Source: a bacterium (GTDB lineage Bacteria > UBP15 > UBA6099 > DSWB01). From it: a stretch of 17,868 bases of DNA. The DNA lies in the NCBI GenBank assembly GCA_020061125.1, contig JAGUYV010000357.1, positions 1-17,868 on the forward strand, given 5' to 3'. Below, one piece after another: positions 1,172 through 17,868 of the stretch (position 1 is its first letter; every line of letters begins with the position of its first letter). The position numbers were made by a program, and so were the translations under genes. The notes under the pieces are model-generated. The model searched no databases. It saw nothing but the letters and a program-made list of their open reading frames with translations, and was not told the DNA's origin.

Positions 1172-1203
1172 AAAACGGCCCGTCCCGCGCGGTCCGGGGC
1201 CGT
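1172..1203 (-). terminator. Rho-independent terminator after the porin gene
   Basis: On the minus strand ACGGCCC (1203-1197) pairs perfectly with GGGCCGT (1181-1175), enclosing a GC-rich loop, and is followed by TTTT. The stem overlaps the final base of the porin stop codon. The U-tract is short, so termination may be partial. Confidence 0.6.
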
Positions 1204-2357
1204 CAGAACCCGATCATGATCTGCAGGCGCAGCTCGTCGTTGTCCTCGCCGCCCGCGGCTTCTTTCTTTGACAGGTAATTCAGCTTGTACACCACATCTT
1301 TTGCGGCGCGGTAGTTCACGGCCAGGGTATCCCAGGTCACATCCGTGGCGGTGGTGGTTCTGACATTGGGATCGTAATCCTCGTGCCGCCAGAAGAAGGT
1401 GTAATTCTTCATGAAATCCACGCCGAACTGCAGGTAACGGCCGTCGGCTAGCACGGCGCCGGCCGCGGGGTCCTTGGGCTTGAGGCGCGCCTGCATGAAC
1501 TCGGCCTTGAATGAGTAGTCTCCGATGCGCGAGCGCAGGCCGGCCTGTTTGAGCGTCTTGTCATACGGAGAAAACGCGCCGGTGTTGGCCGCTGTTTCCA
1601 GGGGCGTGGCGTTTCCGGTCTCGCCCTTTGCGGACAGGAAGGCGGCCTCGGGCTGCAGTTGCAGAGCGCCGATTTTATATGAGCCGGTCAAGCGCGCCGT
1701 TAGCGCGTCCGGGTCCCCGGTGTCGGCGCTATTTTTGCCCGAGCCGTTGAATGCGCCCAGTTCGAGGGCCGTGTCCGGGGCCAGATCGCGCTTTACATTC
1801 ACACCGATGTCGCGTCCGTTGGAGGGGCGCATCTGGTTGATGAACTGCGCGCGGTCAATCATGTCCAGATCCTTTGCGCTGATAATGGACTCGTAACTGA
1901 CCGGCAACTTGAACTGGCCGGCCGAGATCGAGGTGCGGCGAGTGGGCTTCCAGTTCACGAACGCGTCCAGAACAATGGGATCCGCGTTCGCGAAATCCAC
2001 GCCCATCTTCCAGGACATGTTGGGCATGGAGTCGCCGGAAAGCGACAGGCGCGCGTGGCGCACGCGGAAGGTGTCGTTGTTCTGCGTTGTGTCGTTTTCC
2101 ATCCAGTAGCCCGTGAGGTGCATGAAGCCGCTGGCCTTGAAGGGCAGAGAGGCGGGCGCGGGCGCCTTGGCCGCGGCGGGCGCGTCCAGCTCTGTGACAA
2201 GGCCCGCGGCCTCCTCGGCGGTGAGGATCTGCTTTTGCACGAGCAGATCCAGAAGGCGGTCCACGCGGTCATCGGACTGCGCGGCGGGCGCGGCGCACGA
2301 AACAAGAACGGCGCACGCGACGGCTGCAAACACGGCTGCGATCTTTCTCATCGGCAT
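1203..2357 (-). CDS. OprO/OprP-like (Porin_O_P family) outer-membrane porin
   Basis: A 384-residue outer-membrane barrel resembling the phosphate-selective porin O/P family (PF07396-like), expected to form a diffusion channel for small, often anionic, solutes. Residues 1-27 form a signal peptide. Residues 31-58 (DRVDRLLDLLVQKQILTAEEA) match the short coiled-coil segment typical before these barrels, followed by an Ala/Pro linker near 59-70. The remainder alternates polar and hydrophobic residues, with RVRHARLSLSG and WKMGVDFAN typical of the family, and it ends in a terminal Phe, the barrel-assembly signal. The ATG at 2357 is chosen over 2351 because GGGGGG lies 10 bases upstream. LVSC at 18-21 resembles a lipobox, which would be odd for a porin. 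It follows the terminator of the large operon and has its own terminator. Phosphate specificity is not supported; an organic anion is equally possible. Confidence 0.85.
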   Translation of the reverse strand: MPMRKIAAVFAAVACAVLVSCAAPAAQSDDRVDRLLDLLVQKQILTAEEAAGLVTELDAPAAAKAPAPASLPFKASGFMHLTGYWMENDTTQNNDTFRVRHARLSLSGDSMPNMSWKMGVDFANADPIVLDAFVNWKPTRRTSISAGQFKLPVSYESIISAKDLDMIDRAQFINQMRPSNGRDIGVNVKRDLAPDTALELGAFNGSGKNSADTGDPDALTARLTGSYKIGALQLQPEAAFLSAKGETGNATPLETAANTGAFSPYDKTLKQAGLRSRIGDYSFKAEFMQARLKPKDPAAGAVLADGRYLQFGVDFMKNYTFFWRHEDYDPNVRTTTATDVTWDTLAVNYRAAKDVVYKLNYLSKKEAAGGEDNDELRLQIMIGF

Positions 2358-2553: not shown

Positions 2554-3015
2554 TCAGTCGTCGAGATCCGTGCGCTTGTCGAACACGGCCATGGGGTGGC
2601 TGATGATGCGATCAATGCGCGCCTTGCGGATTTTCTCGTCCATGGCCTGCTTGCGCGCGAACGCCTCTTTGATTTTTTCCACGAGATCCGGCACATCGCA
2701 GGGTTTCATCACATAGTCGAAAGCGCCGAGCTTGAGGCCCTCGACCGCGGACTCCACGGAGGCGTGGCCGGTGAGCATGATGACCTCCACAAGCGGGTGG
2801 TCGCGCTTGATGCGGCGCAGTGTTTCCACCCCGTCCATGCCCGGCATTTTCATATCCAGGATCACCACATCAACCGGGTTGCCGGACAGAATGTTCAGCG
2901 CTTCCTGGCCGCCGGGCGCGGTCCTGGCGTTCATGCCGCGCTTTTCCAGAAGGATTTTCGTGGTCGAAAGGAACCGCTCCTCGTCGTCCACCAGCAGAAT
3001 TTGAACAATGCTCAT
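2554..3015 (-). CDS. Single-domain response regulator with conserved C-terminal tail
   Basis: A 153-residue protein with one receiver domain (about 4-120) and no DNA-binding output domain. All phosphotransfer residues are present: acidic pair D10/D11, phospho-acceptor D54 (LDMKMPGMDG), T82 and K104. A charged helical tail follows (about 121-153) with the segment SHPMAVFDK, closely matching the tail of the receiver at 4802-5293. The ATG at 3015 is chosen because TGGAGG lies five bases before it; the longer reading from TTG at 3027 would bury that site. It starts 34 bases after the kinase gene at 3050-4768, its likely phosphodonor, and is the last gene of the operon. Output is probably by protein contact, for example with the fused transporter or another kinase, but that is inference. 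Confidence 0.9.
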   Translation of the reverse strand: MSIVQILLVDDEERFLSTTKILLEKRGMNARTAPGGQEALNILSGNPVDVVILDMKMPGMDGVETLRRIKRDHPLVEVIMLTGHASVESAVEGLKLGAFDYVMKPCDVPDLVEKIKEAFARKQAMDEKIRKARIDRIISHPMAVFDKRTDLDD

Positions 3016-3049
3016 GGCATCCTCCAAAGGTTAATTTGCGCGCCCGGCG

Positions 3050-4768
3050 TCATGCGCCCGGGTGCGCGTGCGCCTGGGACAGCGGCATGCGCACAGTGAA
3101 CACCGTGCCTGCGCCCGGCTCGCTTTGCACTTCAATCCGGCCTCCGAGCCGTTCCACGATGCCGTAGCATGTGCTCAACCCCAGGCCGGTGCCCTGCCCC
3201 ACGGGCTTTGTGGTGAAAAAGGGCAGAAAGATTTTGCTCAAGTTTTCCGGCTCGATGCCGCAGCCGTTGTCCGCCACGGACACGACAATCTCATTGTGTT
3301 CCTGCTGAACCTCGATGCGGATTTCCGCCCCGTGCCGGTTGTGCACCGCATACAGGGCGTTGTTGAGCAGGTTCAGAAACACCTGCTGGAGCTGCGATTC
3401 GTCGCTCATGATCCGGGGCAGGCCTTTTTCCGCACTCACCGCGATGGACACGCCGTCAATATGCGCGCGCTTGTCCACCATGGACACCACATCCTCGACC
3501 ATGTCGCCGAGGTCCACCTCGTGGAGCGCGGGGTCTGTCTTGCGCGCGAATTTCAGCAGGCCCTGGGTGATGAGCGAACAGCGCGATATCTGCATGGAGA
3601 TCTGCGCCATGCTGTCGCGTATGGTGGACAGATCCGCGGGTGTCAGGTTTTTGTCCGGGATCTCAAGATCGTTAAGCACATCGTTTATCAAATAGCACTC
3701 GGCCATCATGACCTGGAGCGGGTTGTTGATTTCATGGGCCATGCCTGCACTCATTTCGCCGACTTCTGCCAGCTTGCCCGCGGCCAGGAGCTTGTTGCTC
3801 ATCTCGCGTTTTTCGACCTCGACCACGGCAAGCTGACCGGCCAGGCCCGAGGCGAGCACATAAGCGGTGAGCACGACCACGCCGCCGCCCAGGGCGATGA
3901 CGATAACGGCCACGGCCACGGCGCGCGCCAGCGGCGCGTAGGCGTCCGTGGCTTTCTGCCGCACCACGAGCAGCCATCCGGTTTGCTGCAGGCGGCCTAC
4001 GGCGTACAGATAGGTGTTCCCGTCCGAGGCCTGCGCCGTGAACGACTCCACTCCTGCATCCGCCTTGCGGTAAAGGCGCCAGTCAGGGTCCGGCTCCTCC
4101 AGGCGCTCTCCAGACGACAGTCCGGTCTGGAACACGCCTTTGCCGTTTACGATGAACGCCTGCCCGGTGCTGCCCACGCGCACGGCCTTCACCAGGTTGC
4201 TGAAATACGCCGTGTCTATGGTGGCTCGCAGATACCACGGCCGGCCGCCCTCGATGCGCTGCACAGCGATCACGAAGTGCGGGACATTTCTGTAGCCCTT
4301 GAACACATCGGAGACATACACGCCCCTGCGGGACACGGCCTTGAACCAGTCCGTGTTCGAGTAATCTTTGCCCTCGAGATCGTATTCGCCGACATAGGCC
4401 GCATGCCGGCCTTTTTCGTCAAACACGCCGATGTCCTCGAATGCGGGAAACTTGCTTTTCAGATCCATGAAAAGTGCGCCGAGCGCATCGCCTTCCGACA
4501 GCTCTGTAAAGGAGCGCGTGGTGGCCGTGAACTCCAGGGCCGAGACCTGCTCGGCCAGGAACTCGTCCACAAGCGCGCGGTGGCCGTCGGTGATGCGGCT
4601 CAACTCGCCCTGGGCCTTGCGGCCCAGGGCGTCGGCGAAGAAATACACCAGAACGCCGCACACGAGCATGACGATGAGAAAAGGGGCGATGAGCACGCGC
4701 GTGATGATCATGCGCCGGATGCGCTTGAACTTGGCGCTTTGTTCGCCGTTGTTTTGAAGGCTGTCCAT
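3050..4768 (-). CDS. dCache-type membrane sensor histidine kinase
   Basis: A 572-residue hybrid-free histidine kinase. A short cytoplasmic N-terminus leads to TM1 (about 22-45), an extracytoplasmic double-Cache-like sensor (about 55-272; the segment GYRNVPHFVIAVQR is typical), TM2 (about 280-307), then the DHp domain with H345 in GMAHEINNPL and the HATPase domain with N470 (LLNNA), D500 (DNGCGI), the FLPFFTTK F-box and the GQGTGLGLS G2 box. No HAMP is apparent; a short helix joins TM2 to DHp. All catalytic residues are intact, so it should autophosphorylate in response to a small ligand outside the cell. The ATG at 4768 is preferred because GGTGA is five bases upstream; a GTG at 4777 would add three residues. 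It lies between two stand-alone receivers, which are its probable partners, and is architecturally a sibling of the kinase at 7424-9184. Confidence 0.92.
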   Translation of the reverse strand: MDSLQNNGEQSAKFKRIRRMIITRVLIAPFLIVMLVCGVLVYFFADALGRKAQGELSRITDGHRALVDEFLAEQVSALEFTATTRSFTELSEGDALGALFMDLKSKFPAFEDIGVFDEKGRHAAYVGEYDLEGKDYSNTDWFKAVSRRGVYVSDVFKGYRNVPHFVIAVQRIEGGRPWYLRATIDTAYFSNLVKAVRVGSTGQAFIVNGKGVFQTGLSSGERLEEPDPDWRLYRKADAGVESFTAQASDGNTYLYAVGRLQQTGWLLVVRQKATDAYAPLARAVAVAVIVIALGGGVVVLTAYVLASGLAGQLAVVEVEKREMSNKLLAAGKLAEVGEMSAGMAHEINNPLQVMMAECYLINDVLNDLEIPDKNLTPADLSTIRDSMAQISMQISRCSLITQGLLKFARKTDPALHEVDLGDMVEDVVSMVDKRAHIDGVSIAVSAEKGLPRIMSDESQLQQVFLNLLNNALYAVHNRHGAEIRIEVQQEHNEIVVSVADNGCGIEPENLSKIFLPFFTTKPVGQGTGLGLSTCYGIVERLGGRIEVQSEPGAGTVFTVRMPLSQAHAHPGA

Positions 4769-4801
4769 GCCGGTCACCGTCTCCCCGGGCGCAGGCCCGC
4801 G

Positions 4802-5293
4802 TCAGGCGTTCTCCTGGTCCAGTTCCTTCATCTTGCGCAGAATGGCCATGGGGGAACTGTTCTCGGCCATGTTCAGCAGTCTTTCAAGCTGATCTTCCTT
4901 AATCTTCTTCTTGTTCATGAGGCGCTTCTTGTACGCGTCGCTCAACACCTGGAGCAGGTAGTCCAGGTCGCAGGGCTTCTGCAGGTACGAGTATGCGCCT
5001 CCGCGCGTGCACTCCACGGCCGAGTCTATGGACCCGTGGCCGGTGAGGATCACGACCTCCAGGAACGGGCGCAGCTTTTTGAGTTCGGCGAGCGTGGTTT
5101 CGCCGTTCATGCCCGGCATCTTGAGGTCCACCAGGGCGATGTCGAAGCTGTTGTCCCTGGCCGCTTCGATTGCTTTCTCCCCGCGGTTCACCGCAGTCAC
5201 ATTGAAATCGCGCACTTCGAGCCGCTTGGTCATGGACCGGAGGAATTCCTCCTCGTCGTCCACAACGAGGATGTTGATTTTCTGGTTGCTCAT
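4802..5293 (-). CDS. Single-domain response regulator with conserved C-terminal tail
   Basis: A 163-residue receiver protein without a DNA-binding domain. The receiver (about 6-122) keeps the acidic pair D12/D13, the phospho-acceptor D56 (VDLKMPGMNG), T84 and K106. The strongly charged tail (about 123-163, starting KKRLMNKKKIKED) is predicted helical and contains SSPMAILRK, the counterpart of SHPMAVFDK in the receiver at 2554-3015. The ATG at 5293 has GGAGA seven bases upstream. It is located 33 bases before the dCache kinase at 4768 and 74 bases after the receiver-transporter fusion; a hairpin at 5314-5335 lies in that gap. The pair of tailed receivers around one kinase suggests they share a phosphodonor and a binding partner. 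Confidence 0.9.
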   Translation of the reverse strand: MSNQKINILVVDDEEEFLRSMTKRLEVRDFNVTAVNRGEKAIEAARDNSFDIALVDLKMPGMNGETTLAELKKLRPFLEVVILTGHGSIDSAVECTRGGAYSYLQKPCDLDYLLQVLSDAYKKRLMNKKKIKEDQLERLLNMAENSSPMAILRKMKELDQENA

Positions 5294-5367: not shown

Positions 5368-7423
5368 TTATTTGTCAATCCCCATCCACTGCCAGTAGCC
5401 GAGAATGGTCCAGAAGAACAGCACGGCCCAGCTTATGAGGAGCACTATGGTGCCGTGCTTGAAGAAGTCGCCCAGGGTGACGAGCTGCTCGCCGGTTTCC
5501 GGGTCGCGGGCCATGGCGTAGGCGATGGCGTTGTTGGGCGTTCCGATGATCATCATGTGCGCGAAGCTGGACGCGAACGCGGTAGCCAGGCCCACCATGA
5601 CAGGCGAGGTGTTCGAGAGGATGGCCATGGGCACGGTGATGGGGCCGATGGCGGCCACGGTGGCGCCGTCGCTCATGAAGTTGGTCACGGTGCCGGAGAA
5701 AAGGCTCGAACTGATGGCCAGGCCCGCTCCGCTCTGGAAGAACGGGGGCAGCGCGGAGATGAACCGCTCGGCGATCCACAGCGAACCGCCGGTGAGCGCC
5801 ACGCAGTAGCCCAGCGCGCTCGCGCTGGCGTACAGCGCCACCACATCCCAGTGAATGTGGTTGATGTCCTTCCACTGAAGGATGCCGAAACAGGACAGGA
5901 TGACCAGCGCGAACAGGAACGGCCCGCCCATACCGAACTCCTCGCCCAGAGTGATGAGCATGACCACGAGGATCACGAGGATGACGGCGGTGAGGTATTC
6001 CTGTTTCGTCATTTTGCCGATCTTCTGGGTTTCCTTGCGGATCTCGGTGATCAGATCCAGCTTCTTAACCTGCAGCTTGTTTCTGAATGCGAAGAAAAAG
6101 TACGCGGCGATGGCGATGGCGCAGACCGGCACGAAGGGCAGGCCGTACTTGACCCACTCGCCGAACGAGATCTGGATGCCGTAGTCCGCGAGGATGCCGA
6201 TCATGACCGCGTTGCGGCCGCCCGCGGCCGGGGATCCGGGTCCGCCGATGTTCGCGGTGAAGCAGCACACCAGAATGAGCATGACCGCCAGGGCGCGGTC
6301 CTTTTTCACGCCGGCCGCGCGGGTCACGCCCATGTAGCCCAGCATCAGGACCGGCACCACGAACGCCACCAGCGCGTGCTCGGACAGGAACGACGCGCTC
6401 ACCGCCAGCAGCGGGCAAAAGATGAACAGGAACAGGGGCAGGGATTTGCTGGTGCCCAAAAGCAACAGGCCTATGCGCCGGTCCAGCCCGGTCTTGGAGA
6501 TGGCCGCGGCCAGGCCCAGCACGCCCATGACGAACAGCACCGCGTCCTTGAAGTGCGCGCGTGCTATATCGTTGGGCGTGAGGATATTGAACATGTACAT
6601 GAGCACGCAGGCCAGAAACGCGGTGATGCCCACGGGCAGCGCGCCCGAGGCCCAGAACACCGCGCTCAACACCAGGATGCCGATCATGATCTTGGCCTTG
6701 CGCGCGGCGATCATCGCGGCCTGGTCATCGCTGACTTCGGCGCCGCCACGGTGCTCCATGATTTTTGATTTGTCCAAGTAGTAAGAGCCGATGGAATCTC
6801 CGTCCTTCATTTTGCCGAAATCGGAGTAGCCCAGAATGCGCGCGGCTTTTTCGGATTTCTGTTCGGCCACGAGCGACACCATGCTTTTCGGGGGCGGGGT
6901 GAGCGCGATGAGCAGGAACAGGAGCACATTGGCGATGATGATGCCCGGGCGCAAGCCGTGCACGCCCGTGAGCCAGGCTTTAAGGCTCGTGCGCTTGACA
7001 TCCGGGATCTCGTGGCGGGCCATGGCGTAGATGCGCTCCTGCCGCGCCGCCTCAATGTAATCAATAAGCTCCTCGACCGGACAGGGCTTGGCCATGTATT
7101 TGAACACATCGTATTTTCCGGTGAGCCGGGCTTTTTCCGTGGTGCCGTGCCCGGTGAGCATGATGATCTGCACCTCGGGCCGGATGGCCTTGATCTCCTT
7201 GAGCGTCTGGATGCCGTCCATGCCGGGCATTTTCTGGTCCAGCACGATGACCTCGGGGCTTTTGTGGCGCACGATTTTGATGGCGTCTTCGCCCGCGCCC
7301 ACATCCATCACGCTGTAGCCGCGCACCTCGAGCTGTTTCTTCATGGCGGTCCGGAAGTGTTCTTCGTCGTCCACCAGAAGGACTTTGCCGGTTCCCTCCA
7401 GCACGCCGCCGCTGACAGTTGCT

Positions 7424-7431
<8 letters not shown>
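5368..7431 (-). CDS. Receiver domain fused to SLC13/DASS-family anion transporter
   Basis: A 687-residue fusion. Residues 16-130 form a complete receiver: acidic pair D21/D22, phospho-acceptor D65 (LDQKMPGMDG), T93 and K115. A cytoplasmic helix-rich linker (131-162) leads to TM1 (163-178), then a permease of the SLC13/DASS (sodium:sulfate/dicarboxylate symporter) type with about eleven further membrane segments. Family signatures are the PPP after TM1, the ALPVGITAFLACVL segment (264-277), GGPGSPAAGGRNA (397-408) and IIGTPNNAIAY (628-638). The two SNT cation-site motifs are replaced by SEH (350-352) and SDG (587-589). The loop after TM1 (about 180-245) is some 50 residues longer than usual. 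The ATG at 7431 has GGAGG about nine bases upstream and overlaps the stop of the preceding kinase by eight bases, implying translational coupling. The likely meaning is a transporter gated by phosphorylation of its attached receiver; the substrate is unknown. Confidence 0.9.
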
Positions 7432-9184
<1,753 letters not shown>

Positions 9185-9203: not shown

Positions 9204-9617
9204 TCAGTTGTTTTTCACCAGAGAAACTTCTGGGAACCGGGCCGGATAGCACCTGCGCAGCACAGCGTCCATGGCGCGCAGCAGCGGCTCCGGGTTCCCC
9301 TGTTTTTCCACAAAAGCGTCAGCCTGTCTGACCGTGGAATCGTGCTCAAATTCCGATATGTCCGAATGCGCCACAACCGGGATGCGCGGGGAGCGGGCGC
9401 GCAGGAGCGAGAACGCTTCCTTACCCCCGAGGAATGGTAGGTTCCAGTCCAGCAGCGCCAGAGCCGCGGGGCAGTCCCCCTGGTCGAGGAGCGCGAACAG
9501 TTCCCTGTGGTTGGCCGCGCACACTACCCCGTAGCCATGGGCCAGCAGTTCACGCATCAGATAGCTACGGATGCGGGCGCTCCCTTCGGCGATGAGGATG
9601 ACAAACCCTTTGTTCAC
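9204..9617 (-). CDS. Stand-alone receiver protein with altered acidic pocket
   Basis: A 137-residue protein with a single receiver fold (about 4-121) and a short C-terminal tail. The phospho-acceptor D57 (LLDWNLPFLGG), S85 and K105 are present, but the usual DD metal-binding pair is A10/E11 (LIAEGS), so phosphorylation may be weak or need a strong donor. The GTG at 9617 is chosen because AAGGGAG lies upstream at about nine bases, and because residues translated upstream of it show no receiver character although the frame stays open to 9908. It is the first gene of the operon, 33 bases after the predicted sigma-54 start and 19 bases before the kinase at 9184. A role as a phosphate sink or adaptor is inference. 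Confidence 0.82.
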   Translation of the reverse strand: MNKGFVILIAEGSARIRSYLMRELLAHGYGVVCAANHRELFALLDQGDCPAALALLDWNLPFLGGKEAFSLLRARSPRIPVVAHSDISEFEHDSTVRQADAFVEKQGNPEPLLRAMDAVLRRCYPARFPEVSLVKNN

Positions 9618-9659
9618 GGCGTTGCGCTCCCTTGCGCGGTATGCAGCGCACATAAATGA

Positions 9660-9675
9660 AGCAACTTTCATGCCA
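9660..9675 (-). promoter_or_regulatory. Sigma-54 (RpoN) promoter of the six-gene operon
   Basis: The minus strand reads TGGCATGAAAGTTGCT, matching the -24/-12 consensus TGGCAYG-N4-TTGCW at every defined position, with the required ten bases between GG and GC. Transcription would start near 9650, about 33 bases before the GTG at 9617. A sigma-54 promoter needs an AAA+ activator; the NtrC-type protein encoded at 10658-12091 is the obvious candidate. Confidence 0.85.
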
Positions 9676-10192: not shown

Positions 10193-10645
10193 ATGCATGT
10201 AATCAAAGGAAATCGCATCCTCGCCGTGCTGCCACGCCAGGGAGCGCAAGCCTCGGTATGCGATATTCTGGCCCGGCACGGCCACGCCTGCACCCACGCC
10301 TCGACCGCGCAAAAGGCCCTGGAACGGATCGAGTCAATGCGTCCCGATGTAGTGATTATCCACTGCGATCTGGAAGACATGCCGGGAGTGGACCTTTGCG
10401 GGAAAATCCGCGCCAGAACCGATCTTCGCGACATGCCCGTGATCATGATATCGGAACGCAGTGATTTGAGCCTGCGGCTCAAGGGTTTCATGGCCGGCGC
10501 GCAGAAGTTTTTGTGTGAACCTGTTGATGAAAAGGAGCTGCTGGCGCAGGTGGAAGCGGTTGCGGCGCGGGCCAGGCCCGGCGCAAAACCGCGCGGCATC
10601 GCCAAGCTGATCGAGCGGGAGCTTAAAGCCGGCCTGCTGCTGTAA
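10193..10645 (+). CDS. Pseudo-receiver protein lacking phosphorylation residues
   Basis: A 150-residue protein with a receiver-like fold (about 6-122) and a basic helical tail (123-150). The segments PDVVIIHCDLEDMPGVDLC and GAQKFLCEPVDEKELL align with receiver strands 3 and 5, but the acidic pair is replaced by L13/P14, the phospho-acceptor position by H57 (D59 is two residues on) and the conserved lysine by E109; only S87 survives. It should therefore not be phosphorylated in the usual way. The ATG at 10193 has a strong GAGGAGG five bases upstream. It is divergent from the six-gene operon and convergent, 12 bases apart, with the NtrC-type gene. A phosphorylation-independent partner of a neighbouring kinase or activator is plausible; it is not proven. 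Confidence 0.8.
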   Translation: MHVIKGNRILAVLPRQGAQASVCDILARHGHACTHASTAQKALERIESMRPDVVIIHCDLEDMPGVDLCGKIRARTDLRDMPVIMISERSDLSLRLKGFMAGAQKFLCEPVDEKELLAQVEAVAARARPGAKPRGIAKLIERELKAGLLL

Positions 10646-10657
10646 GCCCAAACCAGA

Positions 10658-12091
10658 TTACTGGGTCCTGTCATGCCCGGAATCGCCGCCCAGCCCGTAT
10701 TTTTCAATTTTCGCCTGGAGCGTGGGCCGTGTCACACCGAGCAGTTTTGCGGCGCGCGTTCTGTTTCCCCGTGTGAGGCCCAGGGCTTCGCTCGTGAGTA
10801 TGGCCCCGAACCGATCCATGAGATGATTGAATACATCGGATTCCGCCTCGGTGAGCAGCTTCTTGCGCACCCAGCCCCGCACTTCGGTTTCCAGGTCGGA
10901 TTCCTTGACGGATTCTCGTTCCCTGGAATCTTCCATGGCCTGCATGAGGTCGTCTGGGCCAAGGGCGCTGCCGCGGCTGAAGATGAGGGCCTTTTTGACC
11001 GCGTTGGCCAGCTCGCGCACATTGCCGGGCCACGAGTAGCCCTCCACGACCATGCGCGCGGCCGGGGTCATGCCGGGGTTGTCAATGCCCATTTCCCGCG
11101 CGTACCGGGCCAGATAATAGTCGCACAGGCGCAGCGCGTCGCCCTCGCGCCTGCGCAGCGGCGGCAGGTTGATGGTCACCACCTTGAGGCGGTAGTAAAG
11201 ATCCTCGCGGAACCGGCCCTGTTCCATGAGCGAGACCAGGTCGCGGTTGGTGGCGGCGATGATGCGCACATCCACGGAAATGGTTTCCCCGCCGCCCAGG
11301 CGCTCGATGCTCTGCTCCTGGAGCAGGCGCAGGATCTTGGTCTGGATGTGCAGGGGCATGTCGCCGATTTCATCGAGGAACACGGTGCCGCCGTGGGCCT
11401 GCTCGATACGGCCGAGCTTGCGCTGCGAGGCGCCGGTGAACGCGCCCTTTTCATAGCCGAACAGCTCGCTTTCGAGCAGGGTTTCGGGAATGGCCACACA
11501 ATTGATGACCAAAAAGGGCTTATTGGCGCGGGCGCTGTGCTGGTAGATGGCGCGGGCCACAAGCTCCTTGCCCGTGCCGGACTCGCCGAGAACGAGCACG
11601 GTGGCGTCCGTGGGGGCCACGCGGCCGATGGCCTTGTAAATGTCCTGCATGGCCGCGCTGCTGCCGATGATGGACTCGCCGAACTCCTCGCCGGTTTCCT
11701 CGCCCACACCCACGCGCGAGCGCATCATGCGCCCGGCCTCCAGGGCCTCGCGGATCAGGGACAGGATGTCGGGAATCTCGAAGGGTTTGAGCACATAGTC
11801 GAACGCGCCGAGCTTGGTGGCCTCGATGGCCGTGTCCGTGGTGCCGAACGCGGTCATGATGATCACGGGAAGGCGCGGGTGGGTCTTGCGCATCTCGGAG
11901 AAGGTTTCGAGGCCGCTCATGCCGGGCATGCGCACGTCCATGACCACGAGGTCCGGGGACTGGAGGCGCACCTGGTCCAGGGCGGATTCGCCGTCCGGGG
12001 CGATGTCCACGGTGTAGCCCTCGTCCATGAGCAGCTTCCGGAAGCTGTCGCGCAGTTGCGTATCGTCGTCAACGACCAGAATGCGGCTCAT
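10658..12091 (-). CDS. NtrC-family sigma-54-dependent response regulator
   Basis: A 477-residue activator with the full NtrC layout. The receiver (1-120) has D8/D9, phospho-acceptor D52 (MDVRMPGMSG), T80 and K102. The AAA+ domain (about 140-375) has Walker A GESGTGKE (169-176), the sigma-54 contact loop GAFTGA (216-221), Walker B GGTVFLDE (234-241), an RFREDLYYRL arginine-finger region (293-302) and a sensor II GNVRE motif (356-360). A Fis-type helix-turn-helix occupies about 438-466 (GNRTRAAKLLGVTRPTL). The intact GAFTGA shows that it can open sigma-54 promoters. The start overlaps the stop of the kinase gene by ATGA, so it is translationally coupled to its cognate kinase. Two consensus sigma-54 promoters nearby, one upstream of its own operon, are likely targets. 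Confidence 0.95.
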   Translation of the reverse strand: MSRILVVDDDTQLRDSFRKLLMDEGYTVDIAPDGESALDQVRLQSPDLVVMDVRMPGMSGLETFSEMRKTHPRLPVIIMTAFGTTDTAIEATKLGAFDYVLKPFEIPDILSLIREALEAGRMMRSRVGVGEETGEEFGESIIGSSAAMQDIYKAIGRVAPTDATVLVLGESGTGKELVARAIYQHSARANKPFLVINCVAIPETLLESELFGYEKGAFTGASQRKLGRIEQAHGGTVFLDEIGDMPLHIQTKILRLLQEQSIERLGGGETISVDVRIIAATNRDLVSLMEQGRFREDLYYRLKVVTINLPPLRRREGDALRLCDYYLARYAREMGIDNPGMTPAARMVVEGYSWPGNVRELANAVKKALIFSRGSALGPDDLMQAMEDSRERESVKESDLETEVRGWVRKKLLTEAESDVFNHLMDRFGAILTSEALGLTRGNRTRAAKLLGVTRPTLQAKIEKYGLGGDSGHDRTQ

Positions 12092-13578
12092 GATTTGGCC
12101 TCGCTTTCGGGGGTGGGCAGGCTGATGCTGAAGGCGGCGCCGCGCCCTGGAGCGGACACCAGGTCAATGCGGCCGCCGTGCTCCTCGATGATGCGCCGGG
12201 CGATGGAAAGCCCAAGGCCCGTGCCTTCCGCCTTGGTGGTGAAGAACGGCTCGAGCACGCGGTCCTGTATGTCTAAGGGCACGCCGGGGCCGCTGTCGTG
12301 GATGCGCACCACCACGGCGCGGCCCACATGCTCGGCCGCGGCCTCCATTTCCTGGATGCGGATCACGCCCCCGGTTTCCTCCATGGCGTCGCACGCGTTC
12401 ACGATGAAATTCACCAGCACTTCCTTGAGCAGCTCGGGATCCGCGTCCACGGGGGGCAGGTTTTCCTGGGTGCTGCGCTCCACGGCCACGCGCGCCATTT
12501 TGAGCCGGTGCTGCAGCAGCTCCAGGGTCATGGTCATGAGCGCGGGCACCTGCACGGACTGCTTCTTGAGCCGGGGCGGGCGCGAGAATTCGAGGAAGTT
12601 GCGCACAATGTTGTCCAGGCGCCGCATTTCCTCGGACACCACTTCGAGGTCCTCTTTCTGCGCCGGGTTCAACTGCAGGCTGCGCTGAAGAGAGAACAGC
12701 CTCATTTTGATGGAGGTGAGGGGATTGCGGATGCTGTGCGCCACTTCGGTGGACAGCTTGCCGAGCAGCGCCATTTTCTCGGAATGCTCGAGCAGCTCGC
12801 GGCTCTGTTCGAGTTCTTTTTTGGCCGCGCCCACATTCTCGATAAGCCCGTGCACGCTGCGGCTCAAAACCTTCATTTCGTTTTCGCGCGGATTGCCCTG
12901 GCCCTCGGCCATGGACGCTGCCGCGGACAGGCGGCGGATGGGCCGGATCACCTGCCGGGCCAGGGTCACGCCGCACGCCACGCCCAGTCCCAGCAGCGCG
13001 ATCATTCCCGCCACCACGAAATTGCGCATGCCCGCGGCGCGTCGCCTCATGCTCGCCTGCGTCTCCATAATGTTGTGCGTGTAGATCTTTTTGTATTCCT
13101 GCGTCAGCGTGTGAATGGCGAAAAAATTCAGCCGGATCTTCCAGTGCAAATCCGCGCCTTCCTCGAACCGGCCGTTCTTGTACAAATCTATTACGCGGTC
13201 CCGGGATTCGGAATACTGCGCATATTCGTCGCGGACCTTGAGCAGGATGTCGCGCTCTCTCTGCGTGTGAGTGTGTTCGAAAGCCACGCCCAGAGCGTCG
13301 TCAAAATCGTGCTTCTGCCGCTTGAGCTTTTCGAGCCACTCCGGGTTCTGGTCAATGTAATAGTAGGTGACGAAGCCTTTCTGGTTGATGAGCGCGGTTT
13401 CGAGTTCGCGCGCCGCCTCCAGGGCCGTGACATCCTGCTCCATCATCATGCGCAGCATGCGCCCGGTGCTGGTGGCGTACCAGATGGTGATGACCCCGCC
13501 CGTGAGCGCCATGATCAGCAGAACGCTGAACAGAGAGTACACCCGGACCGAAAGCCCCTGATTGCGCCACCAGTTCAT
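12088..13578 (-). CDS. HAMP-containing NtrB-type sensor histidine kinase
   Basis: A 496-residue kinase: TM1 (about 11-34), a helical extracytoplasmic domain (35-184) rich in charged helices and resembling four-helix-bundle sensors, TM2 (185-207), HAMP (208-255), a coiled linker, DHp with H281 (EVAHSIRNPLTSIKM), and HATPase with N394 (FIVNACDA), D428 (DSGPGV), LEPFFTTK and EGTGLGLS. All catalytic residues are intact. The ATG at 13578 is chosen because GGGGAGG lies six bases upstream; reading from 13632 would add 18 residues across the promoter leader. Its ATGA overlap with the NtrC-type gene marks a cognate pair. The sensor differs from the dCache sensors of the other two kinases, so it perceives a different cue. 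The sigma-54 promoter upstream suggests autoregulation. Confidence 0.93.
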   Translation of the reverse strand: MNWWRNQGLSVRVYSLFSVLLIMALTGGVITIWYATSTGRMLRMMMEQDVTALEAARELETALINQKGFVTYYYIDQNPEWLEKLKRQKHDFDDALGVAFEHTHTQRERDILLKVRDEYAQYSESRDRVIDLYKNGRFEEGADLHWKIRLNFFAIHTLTQEYKKIYTHNIMETQASMRRRAAGMRNFVVAGMIALLGLGVACGVTLARQVIRPIRRLSAAASMAEGQGNPRENEMKVLSRSVHGLIENVGAAKKELEQSRELLEHSEKMALLGKLSTEVAHSIRNPLTSIKMRLFSLQRSLQLNPAQKEDLEVVSEEMRRLDNIVRNFLEFSRPPRLKKQSVQVPALMTMTLELLQHRLKMARVAVERSTQENLPPVDADPELLKEVLVNFIVNACDAMEETGGVIRIQEMEAAAEHVGRAVVVRIHDSGPGVPLDIQDRVLEPFFTTKAEGTGLGLSIARRIIEEHGGRIDLVSAPGRGAAFSISLPTPESEAKS

Positions 13579-13641
13579 TGCAGTCCTCCCCGTGAGCGGC
13601 ATCATGCCCCTGCCGCGACTATATGCCAACATTTTTCAATG

Positions 13642-13657
13642 TGCAATATTCATGCCA
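13642..13657 (-). promoter_or_regulatory. Sigma-54 (RpoN) promoter of the kinase/NtrC-type operon
   Basis: The minus strand reads TGGCATGAATATTGCA, a full match to TGGCAYG-N4-TTGCW with ten bases between GG and GC. It shares TGGCATGAA and TTGC with the promoter at 9660-9675. Transcription would start near 13631, leaving a leader of about 53 bases before the ATG at 13578. Confidence 0.85.
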
Positions 13658-13744: not shown

Positions 13745-16312
13745 ATGCAAGATTCGCAATCCGAACGCATCAGACGGCTCCGCCGCCGTTACCTGGAAGA
13801 CACCCCGTTCATCTCGGCGCAGCGCGCGCGGTTTTACACCGAATCGTGGCGCGCCACCCAAGGCCGTGAGCGCGCCGCGGGCGTGCGCGTGGCCCTGGCC
13901 ATGAAACATGTTTACGACAACATGCGCGTGCACATTGACCCGGACGACCGCATCGCGGGCACATGGACCGAATTCTTTATGGGCGTGCCTTTGGACATCG
14001 AGAGGGGCCTGTTCAACGGCGCCCTTGAAGTCGAGTTCGACCAGGCGCGCATGGCCATGTACCGCATGGCGTCCGGCGCGCGCTTCGCCGCGTTCATGCT
14101 CAAGCGATACAAACCCTCGGAACTGCTGAACACCGCCCTGGAAATCTCCGAAGCCGATGTGCCCCTGCTGTCCATCGGCACGCGGACCATGGACCGCCGC
14201 CCGGTGAACCCGTACCGCATCCGGTACCGCGATCTCATGATCCTGCGCCGCGAACTGCTCCCGTTCTGGAAGGGCCGCACCATTGCAGAGCGTTTGCGCG
14301 ATGCGTTCCACCGGCTCGGCGTATATTCCGGGGACATGAAGGACATGGCCGTCAACATGCCGTCCGGCACCACCATGGAGGCAACCATCATCAGCCCCCT
14401 GGCCGCGCTCGGCACATGGCAGGGCCATCTGATCCTGGATCACGAAACCCCGCTGCGCCGCGGCATCGCCGCCATGCGCGAGGATGTGCGCCGCGAACTC
14501 CGTAACCCGGACAACTCCCAGGAACAGATGGATTTTCTGCGCTCCGCGGATCTGGCCCTCGAAGGCGTGCTCTCGTTTAACCGGCGCATTGTCGAGGCGC
14601 TCAAGCAGGCCATCGAGGACGCAACGGACCCGGAGCGCAAGCGCATCCTGTGGCAGATGCTGAATGATTGCCTGCGCGTGCCCGAGAACCCGCCCAACAC
14701 CTTCCGCCAGGCCGTGCAATCTTACTGGACCGTGAAAACCGCGGTGGAGCTGGCCATGCCGTTCAATGTGCACGCGCCGGGCCGCCTGGACCAGTTGCTG
14801 CGGCCATGGTACGAGGCCGACATTGCCGCAGGCCGCATAACAACCGACCAGGCGCGCGAGTTGTGCGAGGAGCTGTTCCTCAAAATCATGTCCCACAACA
14901 TGCGCCCGTACTCGAATTTCACGGGCGCGTTCAACCAGCGCTACGAGGGCAGCGAACCCGTGACCCTCGCCGGGCAGACGCCGGATGGGCGCGACGCAAC
15001 CAACCCCCTCACCTATCTGATGCTCGAGGCCGCTGAAGGCTCGGGCGCGGCCCTGAATTTCGTGGTCCGGTTCCACGAAAATTCACCCCTGGAACTTTAC
15101 GACACTGTGGCCGCCATGCACGCCCGCGGCGTGTCCAGCGTGTCCATGATGAACGATGAAATCTGCATTCGGGCCATGCTGCGGCACGGGTTCTCGGAGC
15201 AGGACGCGCGCAACTGTGCGGTGACCGGGTGCGTGGACCTTGTGGCGCCGGGCAGGACCGGTGGCGAGGGATTCTCGTCCCTGCTCATGTGCCGCACCCT
15301 GGACGCTGCGTTGCGAAACGGGGACAGCAAAACCCTCATGGGCGTGATCCGCGGCGTGGGGCCGCGCACCGGGGACCCGGACACATTCACGAATTTCGAT
15401 CAGCTCCTGGACGCGTTCGCGGCCCAGGCCGCGCACGCCGTGCAATCCATCGCGCGCGCCTCGCGCATCCGCGATCAGTTGTACGCGCGGCATCTGCCGT
15501 GTCCCGCCATCTCCGCGTTCATGCAGGGCTGCATGGACAAGAAAAAGGATGTGACCGCCGGAGGCGCGGTTTACGACTTCGAGGGCATCCTGGTCATGAA
15601 CAGCATCGCCAACACCGTGGATTCGCTGTTCGTGATCAAAAAGCTCGTGTTCGAGGAGAACAAATACACGGTCAAGCGGATACTCGAGGCCGCGGACCGC
15701 AATTTCAAGGGCCGCGAAGAATTGCTGCGCGACATCCTGGCCGTGCGGGGCAAGTGGGGCAACGGCAACCCCGAGAGCGACGCCCTGGCGCGCCGCATCA
15801 CTGACACCGTGTTCCGGGAAATGGACCGGCACGCCACATACAAGGGCGGCCGGTTCGCGCCGTTCATCAACTCCATGACCAGCCACACCATTGACGGCCG
15901 CTTGAGCGGGGCCACCCCGGACGGCCGCCTGGCGGCCACGCCGTTCGCCGCAAGCTGCAACCCCTACAATGTGGAGGAAAACGGACCCACGGGCGTGCTG
16001 CGCTCCGTGGCCGCCATAGATTTCTCACAGGTGCTCGGCTGCGCGGTCAACATACGCATGCACCCGTCCGCCATCGGCGCCACGCCCGAGTCCCGCGCCA
16101 AATGGGCGGCGCTGATCCGCACCTATTTCGCCCTCGGCGGCGAGCAGATCCAGCCCACCGTGGTGTCCACGGAAACCCTGCGCGCGGCCCAGCTCGACCC
16201 GGATTCGCACCGTAACATTATCGTCAAGGTCGGCGGCTACAGCGCCTACTTCACAGACCTGGGCCGCGAGATTCAGGACGAGATCATCACCCGAACCGAG
16301 CATTCCATGTAG
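13745..16312 (+). CDS. Glycyl radical enzyme (PFL-like dehydratase/lyase family)
   Basis: An 855-residue glycyl radical enzyme of the pyruvate formate-lyase-like superfamily, spanning the PFL domain (about 5-700) and the C-terminal Gly_radical domain (about 720-850). The radical glycine is G831 in KVGGYSAYF, a variant of the usual RVxGY. The active-site thiyl cysteine is C496 in TGCVDL; most dehydratases and lyases of this group have GCVE followed by Pro, so the general-base position carries D498 instead. The ATG at 13745 is the first possible start after an in-frame stop at 13733; no clear ribosome site precedes it. Length is normal. Oxygen sensitivity implies an anaerobe. No activating radical-SAM enzyme is present in the window, so activation must come from elsewhere. 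The substrate cannot be named; a decarboxylase, C-C lyase or dehydratase role are all possible. Confidence 0.88.
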   Translation: MQDSQSERIRRLRRRYLEDTPFISAQRARFYTESWRATQGRERAAGVRVALAMKHVYDNMRVHIDPDDRIAGTWTEFFMGVPLDIERGLFNGALEVEFDQARMAMYRMASGARFAAFMLKRYKPSELLNTALEISEADVPLLSIGTRTMDRRPVNPYRIRYRDLMILRRELLPFWKGRTIAERLRDAFHRLGVYSGDMKDMAVNMPSGTTMEATIISPLAALGTWQGHLILDHETPLRRGIAAMREDVRRELRNPDNSQEQMDFLRSADLALEGVLSFNRRIVEALKQAIEDATDPERKRILWQMLNDCLRVPENPPNTFRQAVQSYWTVKTAVELAMPFNVHAPGRLDQLLRPWYEADIAAGRITTDQARELCEELFLKIMSHNMRPYSNFTGAFNQRYEGSEPVTLAGQTPDGRDATNPLTYLMLEAAEGSGAALNFVVRFHENSPLELYDTVAAMHARGVSSVSMMNDEICIRAMLRHGFSEQDARNCAVTGCVDLVAPGRTGGEGFSSLLMCRTLDAALRNGDSKTLMGVIRGVGPRTGDPDTFTNFDQLLDAFAAQAAHAVQSIARASRIRDQLYARHLPCPAISAFMQGCMDKKKDVTAGGAVYDFEGILVMNSIANTVDSLFVIKKLVFEENKYTVKRILEAADRNFKGREELLRDILAVRGKWGNGNPESDALARRITDTVFREMDRHATYKGGRFAPFINSMTSHTIDGRLSGATPDGRLAATPFAASCNPYNVEENGPTGVLRSVAAIDFSQVLGCAVNIRMHPSAIGATPESRAKWAALIRTYFALGGEQIQPTVVSTETLRAAQLDPDSHRNIIVKVGGYSAYFTDLGREIQDEIITRTEHSM

Positions 16313-16322
16313 CCCCGCCTCG

Positions 16323-17868
16323 TTATTCCTGATAAGTCGTGATGATTTGCTTCTGCTTTGCGCCGATCTCGAAATCATAGAACAGATCCGCGGCGCCGGG
16401 CGAATCGGGGACATCATGCGCGGCTGCGCCCAGCGCCTGCACCCCTGCGCCAAGCCAGGTTTCATCAAGCAGAATGCGATAGGCGCCGGGGTCCAGATCC
16501 TCGAAATAGTATTCTCCGTTTTTGTCCGTGAAGGCTTCGAGCATGGGGCGCCCGTCTTGCAGAAGGATGATGTGCATGGCCGCCGGGGAGAGCGCGCCGC
16601 GGCGCGAGATCATGCCGGTGTCCCGCACGCGCACGCGCCCGGCCAGGCGCACCGTGTTTTTCATGGGAATGTCCATGTCCACAGTGCGCCCGCCGCCCAC
16701 GGAGAACTCGCGGAGATCCGCGCCCGGTTTCAGCCCCGCGGCGTAGCTCGCGCTGTCCAGCGTCAGGGTGTAGGATCCGGGAATCAGGCCCTCGAACGCG
16801 TATTCGCCGCGTTCGTTTGTGACGGCCCGGAAATCCCGGTTCAGCGACAGTGCCGCGCCTGCGATGGCCGGCTCGCCGGGGTCCCGCGCGCCATTGCGGT
16901 TCAGGTCGTGATACACCGCGCCGCGCACGCGCCCGGCGCCGCTGAACGGAATCTTCAAATCCAGAGATTTGGACCATGTTCCGCGAACCATGCGCTGCGC
17001 GCCTGCCGCGCCACGGTTGATTTCATAAGCAAACGCGAGCGACGATGTATCCCGGAACCGTTTTTCCACGGTGAACTCGAACCGGTCCCCGCTGTCGCCG
17101 GAACCCGCGTCCGCTTCGTGGCTGCGCCAGTTGACGCCGAACAACAGGGAGTTTGAAAACGAATAGCCCAGGGACAGAGAGGATGTGCGCCCGCCGCCGC
17201 TGAACACGCCCGCATCCGTGAAAAACTGCGCGCGGTTCAGGTCCGCATTCAGAGTCAGCCCATTGTTGCGATAGGCCAGGGATACGCCGAGTTCGCGATA
17301 GTCCGCACGGTCCGCGCCGCGCGTTTTGTCACCGGTTTCCATTTCCGCGGCCACGGTGAAATGGCTGATTTTCCGGGACATCTTGAGCACGAAGAATTCC
17401 TGTCGCGCGGAGGCGGGAGACGCGGGAGAATTCGCGTCGCGGATGTCCGACGACCGGCTGTTGTACGACGCGAAAAGCATGACGCCGCCGAGGACCGGGC
17501 GCGAGAACCCCGCGCTGTGCAGATCGTGCCGGTAAGGAACGGGAGCGGCGGGCGCGTCCGGTTCCGCGCGATACGCGGTGTCTCTCTGAAACTCCGCGAA
17601 AAACCGGGTCCGGCGCGCGGGGGTGAATACGGCGCGCAGCCCCAGTTTTTTCACGCGCCCGTCGCCGGGGAAATCCTTGTGCCCGGTCTGAAAGTTCGCG
17701 CTCAACTGAAACCCGCCGCCCTGGTACGAACCGCCGAGGCGCAGGGCCGCGCCCTCGCGCTCCACGCCGTCGCGGGTTTCCCTGGCATGCACCAGCTCCG
17801 CGTCCAGGCTCGTTCGCTTGTGCGGGATGTATGCGGCGCGGAACATGTCTGCGGCGAATCGCGCGCCC
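16323..17868 (-). CDS. Beta-barrel surface protein with SdrD_B-like domains, N-terminus beyond window
   Basis: The frame is open from the window edge to a TAA at 16323-16325, at least 514 residues; the true start is not in the window, and the Met at 17846 is probably internal. The first visible 280 residues or so alternate polar and hydrophobic residues in many short strands, like an outer-membrane barrel (AAEMETGD, LSLSYR-type segments, NWRSHEAD). Next comes a clear SdrD_B/Cna-B-like module (GAVYHDLNRNGARDPGEPAIAG, ending YAFEGLIPGSYTL) and a second carboxypeptidase-regulatory-like fold (GEYYFEDLDPGAYRI). The C-terminus ends KQKQIITTYQE. Function is unknown; an envelope scaffold or secretion-related barrel is the best guess. 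It converges with the glycyl radical enzyme gene, ten bases apart, so it is not in that operon. Confidence 0.7.
   Translation of the reverse strand, partial: GARFAADMFRAAYIPHKRTSLDAELVHARETRDGVEREGAALRLGGSYQGGGFQLSANFQTGHKDFPGDGRVKKLGLRAVFTPARRTRFFAEFQRDTAYRAEPDAPAAPVPYRHDLHSAGFSRPVLGGVMLFASYNSRSSDIRDANSPASPASARQEFFVLKMSRKISHFTVAAEMETGDKTRGADRADYRELGVSLAYRNNGLTLNADLNRAQFFTDAGVFSGGGRTSSLSLGYSFSNSLLFGVNWRSHEADAGSGDSGDRFEFTVEKRFRDTSSLAFAYEINRGAAGAQRMVRGTWSKSLDLKIPFSGAGRVRGAVYHDLNRNGARDPGEPAIAGAALSLNRDFRAVTNERGEYAFEGLIPGSYTLTLDSASYAAGLKPGADLREFSVGGGRTVDMDIPMKNTVRLAGRVRVRDTGMISRRGALSPAAMHIILLQDGRPMLEAFTDKNGEYYFEDLDPGAYRILLDETWLGAGVQALGAAAHDVPDSPGAADLFYDFEIGAKQKQIITTYQE

Follow-up and report, generated by a model that had tools for sequence, protein, structure and literature searches.

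SPX domains are regarded as sensors of inositol pyrophosphates or Pi. In the yeast permeases Pho90 and Pho87, such a domain forms the N-terminal cytoplasmic regulatory part of a DASS permease, and its deletion raises transport up to eightfold (PMC7381174). The bacterial protein described here resembles Pho90 and Pho87 in this arrangement, and Pho90 aligns with its AF2 model. However, the yeast proteins are eukaryotic and use SPX, whereas the bacterial fusion carries a phospho-receiver and is encoded beside a histidine kinase. A transporter and a two-component module also share one polypeptide in the SLC5-STAC kinases CbrA and CrbS, but there an SLC5 transporter is joined to a kinase, on the input side of signaling, whereas here an SLC13 transporter is joined to a receiver, on the output side (PMC13022988).

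At the level of the locus, the nearest counterpart is a 30.5-kb cluster of Desulfosarcina variabilis. According to the main text of its description, it combines DASS transporters and CBS proteins with numerous two-component systems, Cache-domain kinases among them, the same kinds of genes as the fusion loci (PMC11887813). That text reports related clusters in a total of 26 species, describes the DASS proteins of the D. variabilis cluster as abundant and constitutive, and proposes that the cluster imports sulfate under transcriptional control and control at the CBS level; it does not mention a receiver on the transporter. The DASS proteins of sulfate reducers include a divergent group, Cii, of 474-691 aa, and their function is regarded as unsettled at the clade level (PMC5840216). 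The upper length of this group, 691 aa, is that of four of the fusions reported below (L036, L037, L040 and L052), and that account is silent on response regulators, fusions and two-component systems. Both papers take what appears to be this cluster, or these DASS proteins, to be the means by which sulfate reducers import sulfate.

A receiver and a DASS permease in one reading frame

The window, by which we mean the whole 17,868-nucleotide stretch of DNA analyzed, contains the features collected in Table 1. The original prediction had described a single uninterrupted frame encoding a receiver, a linker and a full permease; ORF analysis together with Pfam and TIGR00785 searches gave the same coordinates and placed the gene on the minus strand. 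The predicted receiver residues, namely the acidic pair D21/D22, the phospho-acceptor D65, T93 and K115, are all present and are invariant in 29 distinct full-length homologues, and the predicted 8-base overlap with the dCache kinase ORF at 7424-9184 is exact. The Pfam content of the fusion consists of Response_reg and CitMHS only, the latter (PF03600) covering residues 258-593 at 1.9e-27, above cut-off; there is no kinase domain, and the N-terminal domain is not SPX. TIGR00785 (dass) matched residues 243-672 at 6.4e-44 with 150 bits, short of its curated cut-off of 198.6. The linker between receiver and permease measures 24-35 residues.

Table 1 Features of the window, with the evidence for each.
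Feature	Position	Strand	Evidence and remarks
REC-DASS fusion	5368..7431	minus	687 aa; ATG at 7431, stop ends 5368 (ORF, Pfam, AF2 model)
Receiver domain, residues 17-126	7054..7383	minus	PF00072 Response_reg, 3e-26
Linker, residues 127-161, with the end of alpha5 and the E141-I-P and R161-P162 motifs, into TM1	6949..7053	minus	
DASS/SLC13 permease, residues 162-687	5371..6948	minus	PF03600, TIGR00785, fold match
dCache histidine kinase HK1, likely phosphodonor	7424..9184	minus	HisKA and HATPase_c pass the cut-off; dCache_1 (8e-10) falls short of it
Single-domain receiver RR1	4802..5293	minus	Pfam
Second dCache histidine kinase HK2	3050..4777	minus	Pfam; order conserved in many loci
Single-domain receiver RR2	2554..3027	minus	Pfam, locus comparison
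Degenerate receiver-like gene before HK1	9204..9620	minus	Acidic pair replaced by A-E; phospho-Asp and Lys kept
Porin (Porin_O_P), 3' end of the cluster	1203..2357	minus	Pfam
Sigma-54 (-24/-12) like promoter TGGCATGAAAGTTGCT, HK1/fusion operon	9660..9675	minus	Pattern match
Second sigma-54-like promoter TGGCATGAATATTGCA, preceding the paired kinase and NtrC genes	13642..13657	minus	Pattern match
NtrC-type response regulator, REC-AAA54-HTH	10658..12091	minus	Profile search
Histidine kinase with 4HB_MCP, HisKA and HATPase, forming a pair with the NtrC gene	12088..13632	minus	Pfam

The fusion is real and conserved

A homologue scan of about 85,000 species genomes yielded 33 loci with close relatives of the fusion, at 51-63% identity. 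Receiver and DASS lie in one frame in 31 of these, and in the other two (L059 and L065) the contig starts within the DASS part. Together with the window, the genome G030 and two other genomes from the phylum of G030 (G149 and G150), the number of fused loci comes to at least 35. The possibility that two genes had been joined in error was checked by looking in relatives for a stop between residues 130 and 163; none was found, all 29 proteins reading through, and the short forms in L057 and L062 are cut off by N-gaps and not by frameshifts. No unfused close homologue was found in the scan of about 85,000 species genomes or in G149 and G150. The window was also considered as a foreign or mis-binned contig, which was not supported, its composition correlating at r 0.92-0.95 with the contigs of its own bin versus 0.55-0.82 with other genomes. 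The receiver-DASS fusion is thus real and conserved.

Carriers of the fusion belong to Desulfobacterota and several other bacterial lineages, with the labels Desulfobacterales, Desulfatitalea, Desulfobacula, Desulfosarcina, Zixiibacteriota, LCP-89 and Hatepunaea; those labeled Nealsonbacteria, Pirellulales and Omnitrophota may be binning errors. In the open literature, supplements and the Galperin censuses aside, no account of a receiver-DASS fusion came to light, so that it may have been mentioned before. Of the 16 solved sequences that the profile matched, none is named as one.

Receiver and linker

In the 29 distinct full-length proteins, Y112 is invariant beside the five active-site residues, which is more than a mere structural appendage would need. 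Linker residues E141, W153, G156, R161 and P162 are likewise invariant. Residues 14-141 of the AF2 model match receiver folds with Z of about 20-21, and the sequence comparison strongly supports an intact phosphorylation site. In a tree of 107 receivers from these loci, all 33 fusion receivers form one clade (support 0.66), for which a single fusion event, subsequently kept, is the simplest history.

The permease retains the DASS fold with altered substrate-site motifs

The AF2 model of the fusion, built from 49 sequences, has a pLDDT of 88.3 and a pTM of 0.83, with low confidence at linker residues of about 140-160. Its residues 146-687 match NaCT, NaS1, VcINDY and Pho90 (Z 28-39), and the DASS fold is complete, with Z of 31-39 to VcINDY, NaCT and NaS1. 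These three share the fold at 22-24% identity, whereas the fusion differs from them by the added receiver and by an extra 60-residue loop between TM1 and TM2 (residues 182-240). From known DASS topology, this loop would be periplasmic if the receiver is cytoplasmic; it is longer still in the unfused DASS that accompanies the fusion in these clusters.

In VcINDY, both asparagines of the paired SNT-type motifs help to bind Na+ and substrate. Both motifs are changed in the fusion: profile alignment to VcINDY places S350-E351-H352 at the first SNT, S587-D588-G589 at the second motif, SNV, and R406 at the proline of the first GxPN. SEH, SDG and R406 are invariant in 29/29 fusions, and the companion DASS has SDH and ADG at the two motifs. 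Neither hairpin carries a VcINDY-like SNT/SNV motif: the serines are retained, and acidic residues stand in for the asparagines. Deviations from these motifs are seen in other bacterial DASS of the set too. Since the replaced asparagines bind Na+ and substrate in VcINDY, the acids suggest altered coupling, possibly by protons, or a different ligand, and Na+/sulfate symport of the NaS1 type cannot be assumed. The profile matches VcINDY at 1e-77, and the homologue in L086 passes PF00939. By predicted fold and profile we class the fusion as a DASS, without filing it as a VcINDY-like Na+/dicarboxylate or Na+/sulfate symporter; its cation-coupled anion transport is a prediction.

Conserved two-component neighbors

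Wherever the neighborhood of the fusion could be read, a dCache histidine-kinase gene stands upstream (31/31 loci) and a receiver gene downstream (30/30 loci); homologous loci and gene order strongly support the predicted placement of a conserved receiver-DASS fusion next to a dCache kinase. The fuller gene order is HK1, REC-DASS, RR1, HK2, RR2, a second DASS (about 615 aa) and REC-CBS-CBS, the second DASS and a REC-CBS gene lying on contig C147 in the window's own genome. The Porin_O_P porin at the 3' end may belong to the uptake system. The operon also holds further receivers and a second kinase, so that HK1 may not be the sole donor, nor the fusion the sole acceptor, and the cognate partner of HK1 is uncertain. 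HK1 distances correlated with those of the fusion receiver at r 0.88 (partial 0.62 given DASS) and with those of RR1 at r 0.81 (partial 0.48), a weak indication that HK1 tracks the fusion receiver better than RR1, as all the genes share one history.

Several other receiver architectures were observed in these clusters. In seven loci (L036:4870-6915, L039, L040, L045, L058, L061 and L064) HK1 has a leading extra receiver, giving REC-dCache-HK, another case of a receiver N-terminal to a membrane protein. Cytidylate_kin2-like and receiver domains are fused at L086:8432-9664, in the same cluster of G030. REC-CBS-CBS proteins stand beside unfused DASS (L034:10976-11887, L088:1894-2841 and L086:9746-10774) and are possibly adenosyl-ligand or ion-sensing partners. 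On the contig that carries the second DASS, a receiver is fused to an anti-sigma type HATPase_c_2 domain (L088:5222-6142).

Sigma-54-like promoters and the rest of the window

Upstream of HK1, sequences that fit the sigma-54 consensus with no more than one mismatch have a density of 0.84 per kb, compared with a background of 0.031 per kb, a 27-fold enrichment (10 sites versus 0.37 expected, P about 1e-11 with loci treated as independent). Within the window, one site precedes the small receiver-like gene leading into HK1 and another the kinase/NtrC pair; the two are near-identical, and 0/200 shuffles contained two, with a pattern derived from those same sites. The NtrC-type regulator likely activates the sigma-54 promoter.

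A single receiver gene (10193-10645, plus strand), in convergent orientation to the NtrC gene, lies between the two operons. Beyond them are a gene for a glycyl radical enzyme of a pyruvate formate lyase-like family (13745-16312, plus strand) and, at 16323-17846, an unusual outer-membrane combination of a porin-like N-terminal part followed by SdrD_B/carboxypeptidase-regulatory-like domains.

Carrier genomes and the probable substrate

Of the 34 fusion carriers, 24 have a dsrA hit above cut-off, as do 10 of the 115 other genomes (odds ratio 25, P 2e-12, kinship ignored). In a further seven carriers there are dsr fragments or aprA, bringing those with dsr or apr to 31/34; the three without either signal (G125, G132 and G145) may be incomplete genomes. 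An apparent lack of dsrA in G030 was rejected, as two of its contigs end inside the dsrA start, an assembly break. Contigs G030:C97 and G030:C54 end at the same dsrA position with different upstream sequences, which suggests two dsrA copies or a collapsed repeat.

By this dsr/apr association, the carriers are dissimilatory sulfur-metabolizers. Matched by gene content, their clusters are apparently equivalent to the sulfate-uptake cluster as set out in the main text of PMC11887813, and the substrate is most likely a sulfate-like dianion. A non-sulfate substrate, such as thiosulfate, sulfite, a sulfonate or a dicarboxylate, would also be compatible with control by the kinase. The changes from SNT to SEH and from SNV to SDG, as well as R406, are unlike characterized sulfate and carboxylate DASS, and the clade-level uncertainty voiced in PMC5840216 leaves room for such a ligand. 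Nevertheless, we regard it as rather unlikely, given the strong dsr/apr association of the carrier genomes and the assignment of the cluster to sulfate in the published main text (PMC11887813).

Proposed mechanism and alternatives

We consider it moderately probable, from the sequence, that HK1 phosphorylates D65 and so changes the transport of a sulfate-like dianion, with phosphotransfer, gating and substrate each a predicted step. In the proposed pathway, the fusion would act as a response regulator with an ion-coupled DASS transporter as its output domain. HK1, encoded just upstream and presumably co-expressed, would sense a periplasmic ligand through its dCache domain and pass phosphate to D65 of the cytoplasmic receiver. 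A short conserved linker joins the receiver to TM1; phosphorylation could shift the contacts of the receiver with the DASS dimer, and the shifted contacts would release or restrain transport of the sulfate-like dianion, as SPX restrains Pho90. Expression of the operon would additionally be set by the sigma-54 promoter and the NtrC regulator. With Pho90/Pho87 as the precedent, we infer that phosphorylation gating of transport would be the best explanation of the fusion.

Alternatively, the DASS part could serve as a transceptor or sensor of substrate or flux, while the receiver competes for or drains phosphate from HK1 and HK2; transport would then be ungated, and other receivers or NtrC would respond. 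The operon encodes two kinases of the dCache type along with three or more receivers, the altered SNT motifs could mean weak or no transport, and CbrA offers a precedent for a sensor that unites a transporter with two-component signaling (PMC13022988). However, the fusion receiver is a phosphate acceptor and not a kinase, the usual flow being from kinase to receiver, and the complete DASS fold is retained with a highly conserved core. The abundant, constitutive DASS proteins of the apparently equivalent cluster, likened by gene content to the one in the main text of PMC11887813, also fit transport better, and we judge the sensor role unlikely.

Receivers often dimerize, and the receiver could instead be a module for tethering, dimerization or localization that keeps HK1 and RR1 attached to the transporter, its phosphorylation altering assembly or turnover and not the transport cycle. 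Several receivers are encoded together, and REC-CBS proteins may bind as well. The strict invariance of D65, T93 and K115, however, favors phosphorylation chemistry over a passive tether, making this role quite improbable. Finally, an assembly artefact joining two genes, conceivable for a window from a fragmented MAG of 513 contigs, is excluded by the occurrence of the fusion in different assemblies at the 35 or more loci above.

Significance

Known two-component systems act mainly on genes, second messengers or motors. The fusion pairs a known receiver domain with an unusual output, a membrane transporter. What is new here is the two-component receiver as N-terminal regulator of a DASS protein, an N-terminal regulatory domain as such being known from SPX-Pho90. 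Preferring phosphorylation gating, we tentatively suggest that the loci may represent a widespread two-component pathway: a histidine kinase would act on a secondary sulfate transporter directly, gating it by phosphorylation of the receiver that the transporter carries, and coupling would be altered, possibly to a proton type; the first step of dissimilatory sulfate reduction could thereby come under fast post-translational control. With a conserved receiver-transporter protein, the control of solute uptake by a kinase could be tested directly, through the one residue D65. Were sulfate the substrate, the fusion would put a signaling switch where sulfate enters its reduction pathway, one of the main ways in which organic carbon is oxidized in marine sediments.
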